This document shows positions 19,933-25,992 of a DNA stretch of 64,000 nucleotides, in pieces. Source of the DNA: an uncultured Latescibacterota bacterium (GTDB lineage Bacteria; Latescibacterota; UBA2968); NCBI GenBank assembly GCA_951812755.1, contig OX638329.1:5216522-5280521 (forward strand). Reading direction: 5' to 3'. How positions within the stretch are numbered: the stretch's first letter is position 1; each line of letters begins with the position of its first letter. The notes under the pieces were generated by a model. It saw nothing but the letters and a program-made list of their open reading frames with translations, had not been told where the DNA came from and ran no database searches. The translations under genes and the position numbers were made by a program.

Positions 19933-21813
19933 ATGCCATCTATTCTAAGCGATTTTGACCTGCACCTGCACAGCGAAGGCAATCACCATCACATCTACGA
20001 TTGTCTCGGCGCACACCCCACAGAAAAAGGCGTGCATTTTGCCGTCTGGGCACCCAATGCCCGGCGCGTAAGCGTGGTAGGCGACTTCAACGCCTGGAAT
20101 GGATGCCAGCACCCCATGCAAAACAGGGGCAGCACGGGTATATGGGAGTTATTCATCCCCGACCTGCAGCCCGGCACCCTCTACAAATACGAAATCAAGG
20201 CTCAAAACGGCGATATCTTTACCAAAAGCGACCCCTATGCCTTCTGTATGGAACACCGCCCGCGCACAGCCTCTGTTGTGTACCAGCCCAACGACGCCCT
20301 GTGGTCCGATACCGATTGGCTGCAAACCCGCCAGAAAAGAGACCCATACACAGACCCAATCGCCATATACGAAGTACACCTGGGATCATGGCGGCGCAAC
20401 CCACACGAAAACAACCGATCGCTTACCTATCGCGAACTCGCGCATGAACTCGTCGAATACGTCCTCGAAATGGGCTATACCCACATCGAACTCCTCCCCA
20501 TCATGGAACATCCCTTAGACGAATCCTGGGGATATCAGGTCACGGGCTATTACGCGCCAACCAGTCGTTTTGGCACGCCAGACGATTTCAAATATCTCGT
20601 CAACCACTGCCACACCCACGGCATTGGCGTCATCCTCGACTGGGTACCCGCACATTTTCCAACAGACGCGCATGGACTCGCGCAATTTGACGGATCTGCC
20701 CTGTACGAACACACCGATCCGCGGCAAGGAACACACCCCGATTGGGGCACTCTAATTTTCAACTACGGACGCAATGAAGTGCGCAATTTTCTAATCGCCA
20801 ATGCCCTCTTCTGGGTCGAAAAATACCACATCGACGGACTGCGCGTCGATGCGGTTGCTTCCATGCTCTACCTCGATTATTCGCGCAAAGAAGGCGAATG
20901 GATCCCCAACCAATATGGCGGCAGAGAAAATTTAGACGCCATCGCCTTTATGCACCAGCTCAACACCCTGATCCACGAAAAGTTCCCGGGCGTCTTGATG
21001 ATCGCCGAAGAATCGACCTCCTGGCCCGGCGTCTCCCGCCCCGTTTATCTGGGCGGCCTCGGATTTGGATTCAAATGGAACATGGGCTGGATGAACGACA
21101 CCCTGTCCTATATCTCTAAAGAACCCATCCACCGCAAATACCACCACGACAACCTCACCTTTGGCCTCGTCTATGCCTTTCACGAAAACTTCATCCTCGT
21201 ACTCTCCCACGACGAAGTCGTTCACGGTAAACGCGCCCTCATCGACAAAATGCCCGGCGACCGCTGGCAAAAATTCGCCAATCTGCGCGCCTTTTACGCT
21301 TTTCAATACGCCCATCCCGGCAAAAAGTTGCTCTTTATGGGCGGTGAACTCGGCCAATGGCAAGAGTGGAATTCACAGGAAAGCGTACACTGGCACCTCC
21401 TTGCAGACCCCGACCACGCGGGCCTGAAGCGCTTTGTAAGAGACCTCAATACCCTCTATCGGGGAGAACCCGCACTCTACGAAAGAGATTTTGACCCCGA
21501 AGGCTTTGAATGGATCTCGCTCCACGACGCCTCAAACAGCGCCCTATCCTTCCTGCGCCGCGCGCGATCACACGACGCCCCTTTGATCTTTGTCTGCAAC
21601 TTTACCCCCGTCCCAAGAGAAAACTACCGCATAGGCGTACCCACCCCGGGCACCTACCGCGAACTCATCAACAGCGACTCCGAACGCTATGGCGGCAGCA
21701 ACATGGGCAATCTCGGCACCGTCCAAACCGAACCCATTGCAAATCACGGACATCCACAATCCCTGCAAATCACCCTTCCCCCACTCGCTGCTGTCATATT
21801 CAAACCTGAGTAA
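19933..21813 (+). CDS. glgB: 1,4-alpha-glucan branching enzyme
   Basis: A 626-residue GH13 branching enzyme that makes alpha-1,6 branches in glycogen. An N-terminal CBM48 ([20 protein letters not shown], about 34) precedes the barrel. The conserved regions are [26 protein letters not shown] with the nucleophile Asp, [11 protein letters not shown] with the acid/base Glu and [10 protein letters not shown] with the third acid. It starts the base after the preceding stop. No other glg gene is nearby. It is a little shorter than the 730-residue E. coli form because it lacks the extra N-terminal domain. Confidence 0.95.
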
Positions 21814-21819
21814 AATCCC

Positions 21820-22010
21820 TTAGAAGCTGTTTTAAAATTAATACCTGATGCTACGGATGTCCGGCGTTTTGTCATGCTGAGCGTAGCCGAAGCATCTTTT
21901 CCACCTGAGTTGGTAAGAGATTCTTCGACTCCGCTGCGCTCCGCTCAGAATGACAGGGCAATAGCGCATCGCTGAGAAGGGGCAAAATGAGTTTTAAAAC
22001 AGTCTCTTAA
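21820..22010. mobile_element. MITE-like element with REP-type internal hairpin
   Basis: About 190 bases just after glgB with imperfect terminal inverted repeats: CTGTTTTAAAA at 21827-21837 and its complement TTTTAAAACAG at 21992-22002, with AGAAG/CTCTT flanks also roughly pairing. Inside, 21870-21896 (TGTCATGCTGAGCG...) is the near complement of 21919-21955 (...CCGCTCAGAATGACA), giving a long hairpin. No gene lies inside. A non-autonomous element or REP-like repeat is the best reading. Confidence 0.6.
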
Positions 22011-22089
22011 AAAAAATTGTGTATCAAAGTTTTGGCAATAGCCATATATGGCTATTTTAATATAAATAGTTGTAAATAAATACTATAAG

Positions 22090-22153
22090 AGCCATTCTGA
22101 TCATTTTTTGACCATATACCGTCAAAAAATAAAAAATTCAGACTGGCTTTTTT
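22090..22153 (+). terminator. Terminator-like hairpin, first module
   Basis: AGCCATTCTGA (22090-22100) pairs with TCAGACTGGCT (22138-22148) with one mismatch, followed by a T-run. The loop holds GACCATATACCGTC. A related hairpin at 22366-22419 has the similar GACCATATACAGTC just before it. Confidence 0.55.
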
Positions 22154-22222
22154 GTTGGCATAGAAATTTTATCTCAAATAAAAATAATACCTTATGATTA
22201 TTTATTTAGATTCCATTCACAG

Positions 22223-22238
22223 TGGCACACTTTTTGCG
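22223..22238 (+). promoter_or_regulatory. Sigma-54 (-24/-12) promoter, first
   Basis: TGGCAC, five bases, TTGC at 22223-22237 matches the sigma-54 consensus with exactly ten bases between GG and GC. No protein gene starts before the terminator at 22366, so it may drive a small RNA. Confidence 0.65.
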
Positions 22239-22249
22239 CTATAAATCAA

Positions 22250-22419
22250 GTTGTGTGGTATAAAGCAGCAATACTATCACAGCCTGGGGTGAAGAAGACT
22301 TCGACGGTTGCGGGACCATAGAGACCATAGTACGTCTTTTAGACCATATACAGTCTTTTTTTAAGAGCCAATCCGACTATTCTGCGACGATATGATATAG
22401 TCAGATTGGCTATTTTTTT
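22250..22419 (+). ncRNA. Candidate sigma-54-dependent small RNA
   Basis: Between the first sigma-54 promoter and a strong hairpin plus T-run lie about 170 bases without a good open frame. The interval contains several short self-complementary parts. The boundaries are estimates: start about 12 bases after the -12 GC, end at the T-run. No known RNA family is recognised. Alternatively it is merely an untranslated leader or enhancer region for the second promoter. Confidence 0.35.
22366..22419 (+). terminator. Strong rho-independent terminator, second module
   Basis: AGCCAATCCGACTA (22366-22379) pairs with TAGTCAGATTGGCT (22398-22411) with one mismatch and is followed by seven T at 22413-22419. 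Confidence 0.75.
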
Positions 22420-22468
22420 CATAGAAAACAATTATTTACGAGTATATCTATCTATAACAACGCGCCTA

Positions 22469-22485
22469 TTGGCACGATTTTTGCA
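22469..22485 (+). promoter_or_regulatory. Sigma-54 promoter, second, for the propeller gene
   Basis: TTGGCAC, five bases, TTGCA at 22469-22485, again with ten bases between GG and GC. It lies about 150 bases before the ATG of the secreted repeat protein, the next gene. Confidence 0.7.
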
Positions 22486-22639
22486 TGTACATGTTATGTA
22501 AATTAAATTCGGATTTTCTTAACGGTCTCCAAATTTCGGTACGCCCCCGTGCGTCCCCCCGCAACAGATTCGCTCTTGATAATATAGACATTTTCCAACC
22601 TTTTACGTCACAACTTGGGTTATCTAAAGGGAGGCATCT

Positions 22640-23773
22640 ATGTGGAACCGTATGATCTTAACCATTTGTCTGGTGTTTGTGTTGACAGGTCCGGCATTGA
22701 CTGGCGACATGACCCACATCCCGGACAGGGACTTCGATAAACTCCGCGCCGCAGGAAACAGAAACCCCACAGGGATCTGGTCGGACGGGACGACCATGTG
22801 GGTGGCGGACAGGAGCGCTAAGATTTATGCCTACAACATGAGGACCAGAGCACATGACCGAGGCAGGGACTTCAATACGCTAAAAGATGCCAGAAACGAA
22901 TCCCCTGCAGGGATCTGGTCAGACGGAACGACTATGTGGGTGGTAGATCATGCTGGCGGTAGGATTTATGCCTACAACATGAGGACCAAAGCTCGCAACC
23001 CGAACAAGGACTTCGTTCTCGCCTTAGAACACGACGTCCCTGAAGGAATCTGGTCGGATGGGACAACCATGTGGGTGAAAGAAAGCTCTTACCAATTCGA
23101 TAAGATTTATGCCTACAACATGAGATCTAGATCCCGTGATCCGAACAAGGACTTCAATACGCTAACAGACGCCGGAGAACAAGACACTGACGGGATCTGG
23201 TCGGACGGGACGACCATGTTGGTAGCAGACGGATATCGGCATAAGATTTATGCCTACAACATGAGATCTAAAGCTCGTGACAAGGGCCAGGACTTCGATC
23301 TCGCCGCAGGAAACACCTCCCCTACGGGTATCTGGTCAGACGGAACGATCCTGTGGGTGGCGGACTACAGGGGCCACATTTATGCCTACGGCGGCCTGGG
23401 CGCCACCAGTGATCAGGCCATCCAGGACTTTTCAATGAAAATCAGAGGCTCGACGGGAAGCCTTAAAGTTTGCGTGCGAGACCACGAGTGCGAAGATGGG
23501 GATAAGATCAGGGTTGAGGTAGATGGCAGGAGCATATTTTCCGGCGAGATTGATAACGACTGGGACTGCTACACGCTGGATGTGTGGGCAGGAGAGAGCT
23601 ATGCAGTGGAATTGACAGCCCTCAACGGCACGGGATACAAGGGGGACTGTAGCTACAGAGATGAAAACACAGGCGAAATCCGCGTTACCGGAGAGAACAC
23701 AGAAACGCAGGTATGGCGTCATCGGGGTGGTGCCGGGTCGAAAGCGCGCATCATAGTCGAAACAGCCAGATGA
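22640..23773 (+). CDS. Secreted propeller-type repeat protein
   Basis: A 377-residue exported protein: signal peptide (MILTICLVFVLTGPALTG) and then five repeats of about 48 residues, each with GIWSDGTTMWVAD and KIYAYNMRT, ending near 255. Such repeats form beta-propeller-like structures. The C-terminal 115 residues form a second, Cys-containing domain (VRDHECEDGDKIRVEVDG) resembling beta-sandwich modules. No catalytic site is visible; surface binding is likely. GGGAGG lies six bases before the ATG. A sigma-54 promoter at 22469 suggests expression under a stress, nutrient or signal-dependent activator. Confidence 0.7.
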   Translation: MWNRMILTICLVFVLTGPALTGDMTHIPDRDFDKLRAAGNRNPTGIWSDGTTMWVADRSAKIYAYNMRTRAHDRGRDFNTLKDARNESPAGIWSDGTTMWVVDHAGGRIYAYNMRTKARNPNKDFVLALEHDVPEGIWSDGTTMWVKESSYQFDKIYAYNMRSRSRDPNKDFNTLTDAGEQDTDGIWSDGTTMLVADGYRHKIYAYNMRSKARDKGQDFDLAAGNTSPTGIWSDGTILWVADYRGHIYAYGGLGATSDQAIQDFSMKIRGSTGSLKVCVRDHECEDGDKIRVEVDGRSIFSGEIDNDWDCYTLDVWAGESYAVELTALNGTGYKGDCSYRDENTGEIRVTGENTETQVWRHRGGAGSKARIIVETAR

Positions 23774-24972: not shown

Positions 24973-25992
24973 ATGAACAAGATATTATACATCCTGATTT
25001 TCTCAACCCTGCTATTTTCAAGCAGCGATGCGCAACAGGGGGAGGTCGAATATGTTATCAAGCCGCAATTTGACGATGCTGGGTCTTTTGTAGAAGGTCT
25101 GGCTCATGTGAAAATTGGTGACAGGTGGGGGTATATCAACAAGGAAGGACAATATGTTGCTAACCCCCAATTTGACGATGCTGAGCCTTTTTCAGAAGGT
25201 CTGGCTCGTGTGAAAATTGGTGACAAGTATGGATATATCAACAAGGAAGGACGATATGTTATTAACCTGCTATTTGACGATGCTGGGTCTTTTTCAGAAG
25301 GCCTGGCTCCTGTGAAGATCAATGACAAGTGGGGGTATATCAACAGAGAAGGACAATATGTTATCAGGCCGCAATTTGACGATGCTGAGCCTTTTTCAGA
25401 AGGCCTGGCTCATGTGGAAATTGATTTCGATGACGGATATATCAACAGAGAAGGACAGTATGTGATCAAGCCGCAATTTATCGATGCTATTATCGTTGCT
25501 GATGATTTTTCAGAAGGCCTAGCTGATGTGTATATTGGTGGCAGGTATGGGTATATCAACAAGGAAGGACAATGGGTTATCCAGCCCCAATTTGACTATG
25601 CTGATGAGTTTTCAGAAGGACTGGCTCTTGTGGAAATTGGTGGCAGGTATGGGTATATCAACAAGGAAGGACAATATGTGATCAATCCCCAATTTGACAA
25701 TACTGGGATTAGTTTTTCAGAAGGCCTGGTTCATGCGAAAATTGGTGACAAGTGGGGGTATATCAACAAGGAAGGGCAAGTTGTCATCAAGCCCCAATTT
25801 GACGGTGCTGGGTCTTTTTCAGAAGGCCTGGCTGCTGTGAAAATTGGTGACAAGTGGGGGTATATCAACAAGGAAGGGCAAGTTGTCATCAAGCCCCAGT
25901 TTGACTCTGCTGGGTCTTTTTCAGAAGGCCTAGCTGCTGTGAAAATTGGTGACAAGTATGGGTATATCAGTAAGGCGTCTTTTGAGAAATGA
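24973..25992 (+). CDS. Secreted WG-repeat protein
   Basis: A 339-residue exported protein: signal peptide (ILYILIFSTLLFSSSDA) followed by nine WG repeats of about 35 residues, each of the form PQFDDAxxFSEGLAxVKIGD then WGYINKEGQYVI. WG repeats form a KWG/beta-structured surface used for binding; no enzyme site is visible. The last two repeats are almost identical at the DNA level, so copy number probably changes by recombination. GGAGG precedes the ATG. Confidence 0.85.
   Translation: MNKILYILIFSTLLFSSSDAQQGEVEYVIKPQFDDAGSFVEGLAHVKIGDRWGYINKEGQYVANPQFDDAEPFSEGLARVKIGDKYGYINKEGRYVINLLFDDAGSFSEGLAPVKINDKWGYINREGQYVIRPQFDDAEPFSEGLAHVEIDFDDGYINREGQYVIKPQFIDAIIVADDFSEGLADVYIGGRYGYINKEGQWVIQPQFDYADEFSEGLALVEIGGRYGYINKEGQYVINPQFDNTGISFSEGLVHAKIGDKWGYINKEGQVVIKPQFDGAGSFSEGLAAVKIGDKWGYINKEGQVVIKPQFDSAGSFSEGLAAVKIGDKYGYISKASFEK

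Follow-up and report, generated by a model that had tools for sequence, protein, structure and literature searches.

A probable non-autonomous MITE with IS5-family ends, and apparently with a second MITE-like family in its interior, behind glgB of an uncultured Latescibacterota bacterium

The window, i.e., the whole stretch of 64,000 nucleotides that was analyzed, comes from a genome assembled as one contig of 6,530,187 bases and 99.58% complete (referred to below as the own genome). The intergenic region downstream of glgB in this window contains a short palindromic unit, with the following features in and around it:

19933-21813, + strand: glgB (1,4-alpha-glucan branching enzyme, the name being that of the initial annotation), 626 aa, the upstream host gene, an ORF with same-genus homologs
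21820-21822, + strand: left target-site duplication TTA, present as a single TTA in the empty site of a relative (G009)
21823-22006, + strand: element of 184 bp, in all probability a MITE, canonical form GAAG...TCTC, of a family with 79 characterized genome copies
21823-21837, + strand: left terminal inverted repeat GAAGCTGTTTTAAAA, resembling the ends of an IS5-family element of the sister species G004
21838-21844, + strand: TTAATAC, the probable left 7-bp target duplication of a nested second MITE, both copies of which are found only in element L058
21845-21955, + strand: core matching a second repeat family, with the left end CTGATG(T/C)TACG(C/G)A and the hairpin
21870-21883, + strand: left hairpin arm TGTCATGCTGAGCG
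21942-21955, read on the - strand: right hairpin arm TGTCATTCTGAGCG
21992-22006, read on the - strand: right terminal inverted repeat GAGACTGTTTTAAAA
22007-22009, + strand: right target-site duplication TTA

The element (GAAGCTGTTTTAAAATTAATACCTGATG...GGGGCAAAATGAGTTTTAAAACAGTCTC) starts 10 bp after the glgB stop codon (21811-21813), has TTA on either side, and lies slightly inside the interval 21820-22010 of the initial annotation, which had described terminal inverted repeats framing an internal hairpin; both are found where it had placed them. The unit has 15-bp ends and no transposase gene. The inverted repeats share CTGTTTTAAAA, at 21827-21837 (+ strand) and 21992-22002 (- strand), and the hairpin arms share TGTCATNCTGAGCG, at 21870-21883 (+ strand) and 21942-21955 (- strand). 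The only inverted-repeat pair detected in 21600-22200 is formed by the element ends (21 nt, 81% complementary). Folding is better than expected both for DNA (z-score of -2.96; none of 200 shuffles folds as well) and for RNA (z-score of -3.84; one of 200 shuffles is as good). Within the window, matches to the end pattern (3 at up to one mismatch, 1.27 expected) and to the arm pattern (2 at up to two mismatches, 1.43 expected) are barely above chance; it is because the genome-wide counts given below far exceed their controls that chance does not account for these ends and arms. Beyond the element, the ORFs at 22640-23773 and 24973-25992 contain internal amino-acid repeats, of the WSDGTTMWV and GYINKEGQ types.

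Other copies are abundant in the own genome. A search with the element as query gave 53 match rows, of which 40, including the window copy, are long and 92-100% identical, and 13 are short or weak; 40 of 189 first-look candidates were scored, so the long copies number at least 40. The pattern GACTGTTTTAAAAC, at up to one mismatch, occurs 72 times, as compared to 4 times for the reversed pattern, and the end sequence TNAGARDCTGTTTTAAA occurs 172 times, as compared to none for its reversed control, which suggests about 86 elements. Both ends were characterized in 79 copies, the two genomic orientations being represented by 42 and 37 of them; these hold 156 of the 172 end matches, five more belong to single-ended or chance occurrences (L044, L185, L187, L251 and L253), and 11 are untraced. 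The copies are young, as the 39 members of the 184-bp class share 96.5% mean pairwise identity. The ends take the form GAAG...TCTC in 62 of the 79 copies, GAAG with CTTC or CTTT in 10, and GAGA...CTTC in five, and in two more they carry other single changes. In the last-named five (L025, L053 at 3369, L062, L064 and L065), the GAGA...CTTC copies, the interior is inverted relative to the outer four bases, apparently through a flip of the segment between the 11-bp repeats.

The three base pairs flanking the element are identical on both sides in 72 of the 79 copies (TAA 29, TTA 29, TCA 10 and TGA 4) and unequal in the remaining 7, while random re-pairing of left and right flanks yields 26.6 identical pairs on average and never more than 39 in 5000 shuffles. 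The initial annotation had called the element MITE-like and proposed to look for further genome copies, target-site duplications and an empty site in relatives; the first two were found, and so was the third (see below). A pyrimidine precedes and a purine follows the TNA in 64 of 79 targets. Preference for TNA targets is known in the IS1031 and ISL2 subgroups (ISfinder). A simple and crude ORF rule places 19 of the 79 insertions inside an ORF and the other 60 between genes; of 1580 points drawn at random from these loci, 293 fall outside ORFs. In 8 of the 79 insertions, the targeted TNA coincides exactly with the stop codon of an ORF (90 aa or longer), as compared to 45 of 3141 other YTNAR sites in these sequences.

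The glgB protein is found in 10 of the 11 same-genus genomes searched, including the own genome; the exception is G008, which gave no match at the cut-off used. In eight of them the protein is 94-96% identical over its full length, and one more hit, 93% identical, is cut at a contig end. All eight relatives with the full gene lack the element in the 260 bp after glgB. One of them, G009, contains an exact empty site (...AAAATCCCTTAAAAAAAATTGTG...), which is missing 184 bp and one TTA, and is the one site of this kind that we show in full. When 400 bp from either side of the window copy are aligned to this locus (L129), they overlap by 3 bp, i.e., the duplicated TTA; the right flank aligns for 54 bp only, after which the genomes diverge. 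Copies L005 and L071 also have both flanks matched in G009, there separated by about 174 and 160 bp, respectively, and these two may be shared older insertions. Just to the right of the insertion, at 22037-22056, the window has a short palindrome, AATAGCCATATATGGCTATT, also present in the empty site of G009, which could be an original signal behind glgB.

The proximity of a folded structure to a stop codon raises the question of whether it is maintained for a function. The initial annotation had suggested that the element may end glgB transcription, and one could indeed think of a selected RNA or DNA structure, such as a terminator or an mRNA stabilizer, on account of the RNA fold exceeding the shuffles (z-score of -3.84) and its place 10 bp after the stop codon. 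A consensus scan of 21700-22660 found no intrinsic terminator (G+C-rich stem followed by a T run) in the element, the sole terminator-like site in that interval being at 22461-22476 on the - strand, outside the element, and the three Rfam matches in 21600-22400 are all below their gathering scores. The eight relatives do without the element at this position, and the 60 intergenic insertions separate tandem genes in 35 cases, convergent genes in 10 and divergent genes in 13, with just one neighboring gene in the remaining 2, so that copies are also found between divergent genes. Tolerated insertions fit this pattern better than a selected terminator, and we regard a function of this kind behind glgB as very unlikely.

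Outside the own genome, the element has matches at E <= 1e-5 in 13 of 41 genomes (own included, with at most 19 candidates scored per genome). The matches cover most of the element in G004, G007, G009 and G010, all of the same genus, and many others are limited to the hairpin. The right-end pattern GACTGTTTTAAAAC is found in 4 of 11 same-genus genomes (own, G004, G007 and G009), and a broader end pattern in 23 of 47 genomes of the class, often around other interiors. A search for the exact 25-base left-end pattern in contigs of 84,980 species, from which records of the own genome were possibly left out, gave 16 stretches, all in one MAG, Candidatus Latescibacterota isolate 277c_43, the nearest named relative, and kinship with it places the own genome in the Latescibacterota. 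In G015, G016, G017, G019 and G021, of the same order or class, ends of the form TNA-GARDCTGTTTTAAA are abundant, up to 72 per genome; in some of those loci the interior is a different one, e.g., TTACCGGTGAGTT, which suggests that sister MITE families exist.

An IS with matching ends was found in the genome of the sister species G004. Its locus L219 contains a 928-bp element (934-1861), with the ends GAAGTTGTTTTAAAAA and GAAGCTGTTTTAAAAA and TTA on both sides, in which a transposase gene is located between GAAGTTGTTTTAAAAATG and GAAGCTGTTTTAAAAATA, again with TTA at both outer sides. The ORF, 292 aa long, matches PF13340, PF01609 and PF13586, as well as NCBIfam NF033580 (IS5_3, E = 8e-74); an upstream ORF, sulfatase-like by eye, stops at the element border. 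G004 and G001 have further ends of this IS where contigs terminate (L142 of G004, 95.6% over 137 bp; L146 of G001, 83.6% over 55 bp), and relatives of the transposase, 52-69% identical, are found in G014, G037 and G041 with related ends, e.g., GAAGCTGTCTTAAAAC and GAAGCTGTCTGAAAAC. The element under study thus has its ends in common with an autonomous IS5-family element that makes the same duplication, and the similarity between the two is confined to the terminal repeat. We conclude, with a probability of about 0.9, that the window copy is a non-autonomous MITE, its ends being of the IS5 family, and that it inserted 10 bp downstream of the glgB gene at a TTA target, which was duplicated. A DDE transposase of a full-length IS5-family element would recognize the 15-bp ends, GA(AG/GA)CTGTTTTAAAA, and paste the element into YTNAR sites, duplicating the central TNA; copies would accumulate mainly between genes, some of them right on a stop codon, which the duplicated TNA would preserve.

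An autonomous partner in the same genome was not found by domain searches. PF13340, an IS4/5-family transposase domain that matches in 13 of 47 genomes of the class and twice in G004, gave no match in the own genome (35 candidates scored), and neither did PF13586; the only hit of PF13359 there is below cut-off, on an IS982 gene. PF01609 has 21 matches in the own genome, the best at 62 bits, as compared to 105.7 bits for the G004 transposase. Their naming covers four representatives and two broken genes, with three short fragments left out: L171 is IS982, L163 is IS1380, and L172 (IS1182-like) and L175 (IS701/IS4-like) are below cut-offs. Since no IS5_3-type transposase domains were found there, the own-genome copies look orphaned.

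The own genome was also searched from the ends. The 37 sites of GACTGTTTTAAAAC (up to one mismatch) outside the 40 scored copies, inspected for an autonomous copy, are MITE copies with three exceptions: in L061 and L063 the partner of the end is missing, and L044 is a single-ended copy. A pattern for the ends followed by other sequence gave three places: L185, a single end; L186, a MITE copy; and L187, a probable chance match in an ORF. Because this pattern excludes T at the third base after AAA, and hence would miss IS ends of the G004 type, it is from the domain searches that we take the transposase to be absent. No ORF next to the terminal repeats in L133-L162 is evidently a transposase by eye. 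The IS982-like gene L171 was considered as a partner on the basis of an apparently matching end, GAGTCTGTCTTAA, and rejected, as its real ends look, by eye, like AAACGCTTGGTGTGAG. The pseudogenes L180 and L181 were likewise set aside: their best match is IS982, with a score at the cut-off for L181 and below it for L180, and neither showed matching ends. An observation of a different kind concerns G008, a single-contig genome of the same genus, which has 49 PF13340 matches; with 19 of 27 candidates scored, the window element has no counterpart there at E <= 1e-5, and none of the six loci scanned (L208, L220, L224, L227, L230 and L233) has GAAGCTGTTTTAAAA ends on both sides.

The initial annotation had also suggested that the element may be moved by a transposase in trans. 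A matching IS5-family element with a transposase does exist in the genus, and none was found in the own genome. Since domains of the IS5_3 type were not found in the own assembly, mobilization in trans, a well-supported reading, is what we infer rather than observe; the donor transposase would have been lost, or transient from outside, or encoded on DNA missing from the assembly. The recent spread of the MITE in a genome that lacks IS5_3-type domains and has IS982, IS1182-like, IS1380 and IS701-like transposases could also be attributed to one of these resident enzymes. This is unlikely: the IS1380 group has the ends CCCGACTAATTCAT, unlike those of the element, the ends of the IS982 gene L171 appear by eye to be of the AAACGCTTGGTGTGAG type, and it is the same-genus IS5_3 element that has the right ends and the right duplication.

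The interior of the MITE appears to have a separate history. The TGTCATNCTGAGCG arms, at up to one mismatch, account for 313 half-sites in the own genome, as compared to one in the control. We fetched 20 arm regions from the first 100 listed places, chosen outside the MITE copies then known. They include further copies of the family (e.g., L239, L243, L244 and L249) and also elements with the ends CTGAYGTTACGCA...TGCGTAACRTCAG, which make up a second MITE-like family (within L234-L252); a third hairpin context, ACGTCATGTGTGACTTCAAG-like, is seen in L240, L247 and L250. The fetched loci contain 13 CTGAYGTTACGCA-ended candidates, of which 8 are bounded by direct repeats of 6-8 bp and 5 are not; in 2000 shuffles, repeats of at least 6 bp bound 0.8 candidates on average and 5 at most. 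The second family therefore has terminal repeats and a target duplication of its own.

Several intermediates bear on the relationship between the two families. The IS5-type element begins ...TTAATAC|CTGATGTTACGCA, and its interior starts like the second family. L058 is an IS5-type element that holds a complete second-family element flanked by two copies of TTAATAC, a duplication of 7 bp, and L251 combines a second-family element with a single IS5-type end. Canonical copies, the window copy among them, lack the right end of the nested element. The TGTCATNCTGAGCG hairpin thus appears to be the remains of the second MITE family nested in IS5-type ends. As to the order of nesting, the second, palindromic family probably landed in the IS5-type MITE, which would leave an interior unlike that of the IS.

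Two other readings of the hairpin have to be weighed here. The initial annotation had described it as REP-type, a sequence repeated between genes. Repeated it is, 313 times against one; that it is a REP element is not shown, as in this genome it is also the core of at least one other family of repeats, which has ends of its own and duplications of 6-8 bp. In the stronger version of that idea, the whole would be a REP- or BIME-type palindrome spread by a REP-associated tyrosine transposase (RAYT), with the flanking inverted repeats incidental, and the repeated arms and REP-like tip cassettes that also occur outside the hairpins (10 of 26 contexts, see below) could be cited in its favor. The repeating unit is 184 bp long, with fixed ends and a 3-bp duplication, and both ends match a DDE-type IS, while REPs are palindromes of 20-40 bp (PMC3733652); the empty site also speaks against it, and we find this reading most improbable. 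Alternatively, the TGTCATNCTGAGCG hairpin might spread alone and be found in IS5-type ends by chance, the window copy then being an insertion of the hairpin; among the 20 regions examined, several do have its core without ends of the IS5 type. What is absent from the empty site is the entire 184 bp together with one TTA, so the inserted unit is the complete element, and IS5-type ends without the hairpin are seen at this position in none of the eight relatives read, which makes such independent spread hardly credible.

A further layer of variation is at the hairpin tip, which in the 79 copies is short in 44, carries GAACTG...CAGTTGTACCCCGCTCC or a derived form, in several lengths, in 32, does not fit the tip pattern in 2, and is 25 bases long in 1. 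A further insertion in one arm is seen in 9 of the 32 cassette-bearing copies; in the window copy the tip is short and bears no cassette. This cassette, GAACTG...CAGTTGTACMCCG, resembles REP elements and is distinct from the TGTCATNCTGAGCG hairpin. Of its 26 distinct contexts in the fetched loci, 10 are not hairpins of this kind, although one of these, in L182, is possibly still a hairpin context. It is free-standing, each time after T, in L018, L027, L029, L063, L187 and L243 of the own genome and in L101, L150 and L190 of relatives. Some MITE copies have gained REP-like hairpin cassettes at the tip, and, by eye, the longest form of the cassette appears to contain a second cassette in the opposite orientation. 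A tentative reading, to which we give somewhat less than even odds, joins all these layers: IS5-type MITE ends (3-bp duplication) surround a second MITE family (6-8 bp duplication), the hairpin tip of which is a repeated landing place for REP-like cassettes that themselves receive an inverted cassette, and the composite would have spread, as modular variants, to about 80 copies in a genome in which the matching transposase is not found, with the interior flipped in 5 of 79.

Several known systems are similar in part. The IS5-family IS of G004 (NF033580, IS5_3) has in common with the MITE the 15-bp ends GAAGYTGTTTTAAAA, the 3-bp TTA duplication and the genus, and differs in encoding a 292-aa transposase within 928 bp, as compared to 184 bp, with only the terminal repeats shared. 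Prokaryotic MITEs, the subject of the review PMC10969869, are likewise short and multicopy, with terminal inverted repeats and flanking direct repeats, and are thought to be mobilized in trans; unlike them in general, the present element has an interior resembling a second MITE family, cassettes in the longer copies, and no partner found in its own genome. Tourist-like PIF/Harbinger MITEs of eukaryotes also make a 3-bp target duplication (PMC2213677 and PMC2836001), and elements of the PIF/Harbinger type are treated in one phylogeny with the prokaryotic IS5 family in PMC12730594; the element differs from them in being bacterial and in having different ends and a composite interior. REP elements (PMC3733652) are high-copy palindromes, as here, and the tip cassette GAACTG...CAGTTGTACMCCG resembles them, whereas the window element is longer, with terminal repeats and target duplication and without that cassette. 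TIMEs, which are Tn3-derived, are also miniature non-autonomous elements, from which mosaic transposons arise (PMC4133298); the ends in our case are IS5-type instead. No report of the element was found in the open-access literature searched, mostly titles and beginnings of abstracts; in that literature the letters TGTCATTCTGAGCG were not found, and CTGAGCGAAGCGAAG occurs in one unrelated paper only.

The element is mobile DNA of a known kind, and its interesting parts are the nesting and the missing transposase. It carries a warning against taking a repeated hairpin such as TGTCATNCTGAGCG for a REP element or a terminator that functions as such. The sister genome that has the enzyme, a copy-rich genome in which none was detected, and a relative with the empty site together make a natural system for MITE amplification after, or without, the transposase. 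The duplications and intermediates show in what way mobile pieces of different origin can give rise to intergenic palindromes in bacteria, and, if the multilayer composite is true, the tip of a palindrome would be a preferred target for other small palindromes, and hairpins would grow by capture.
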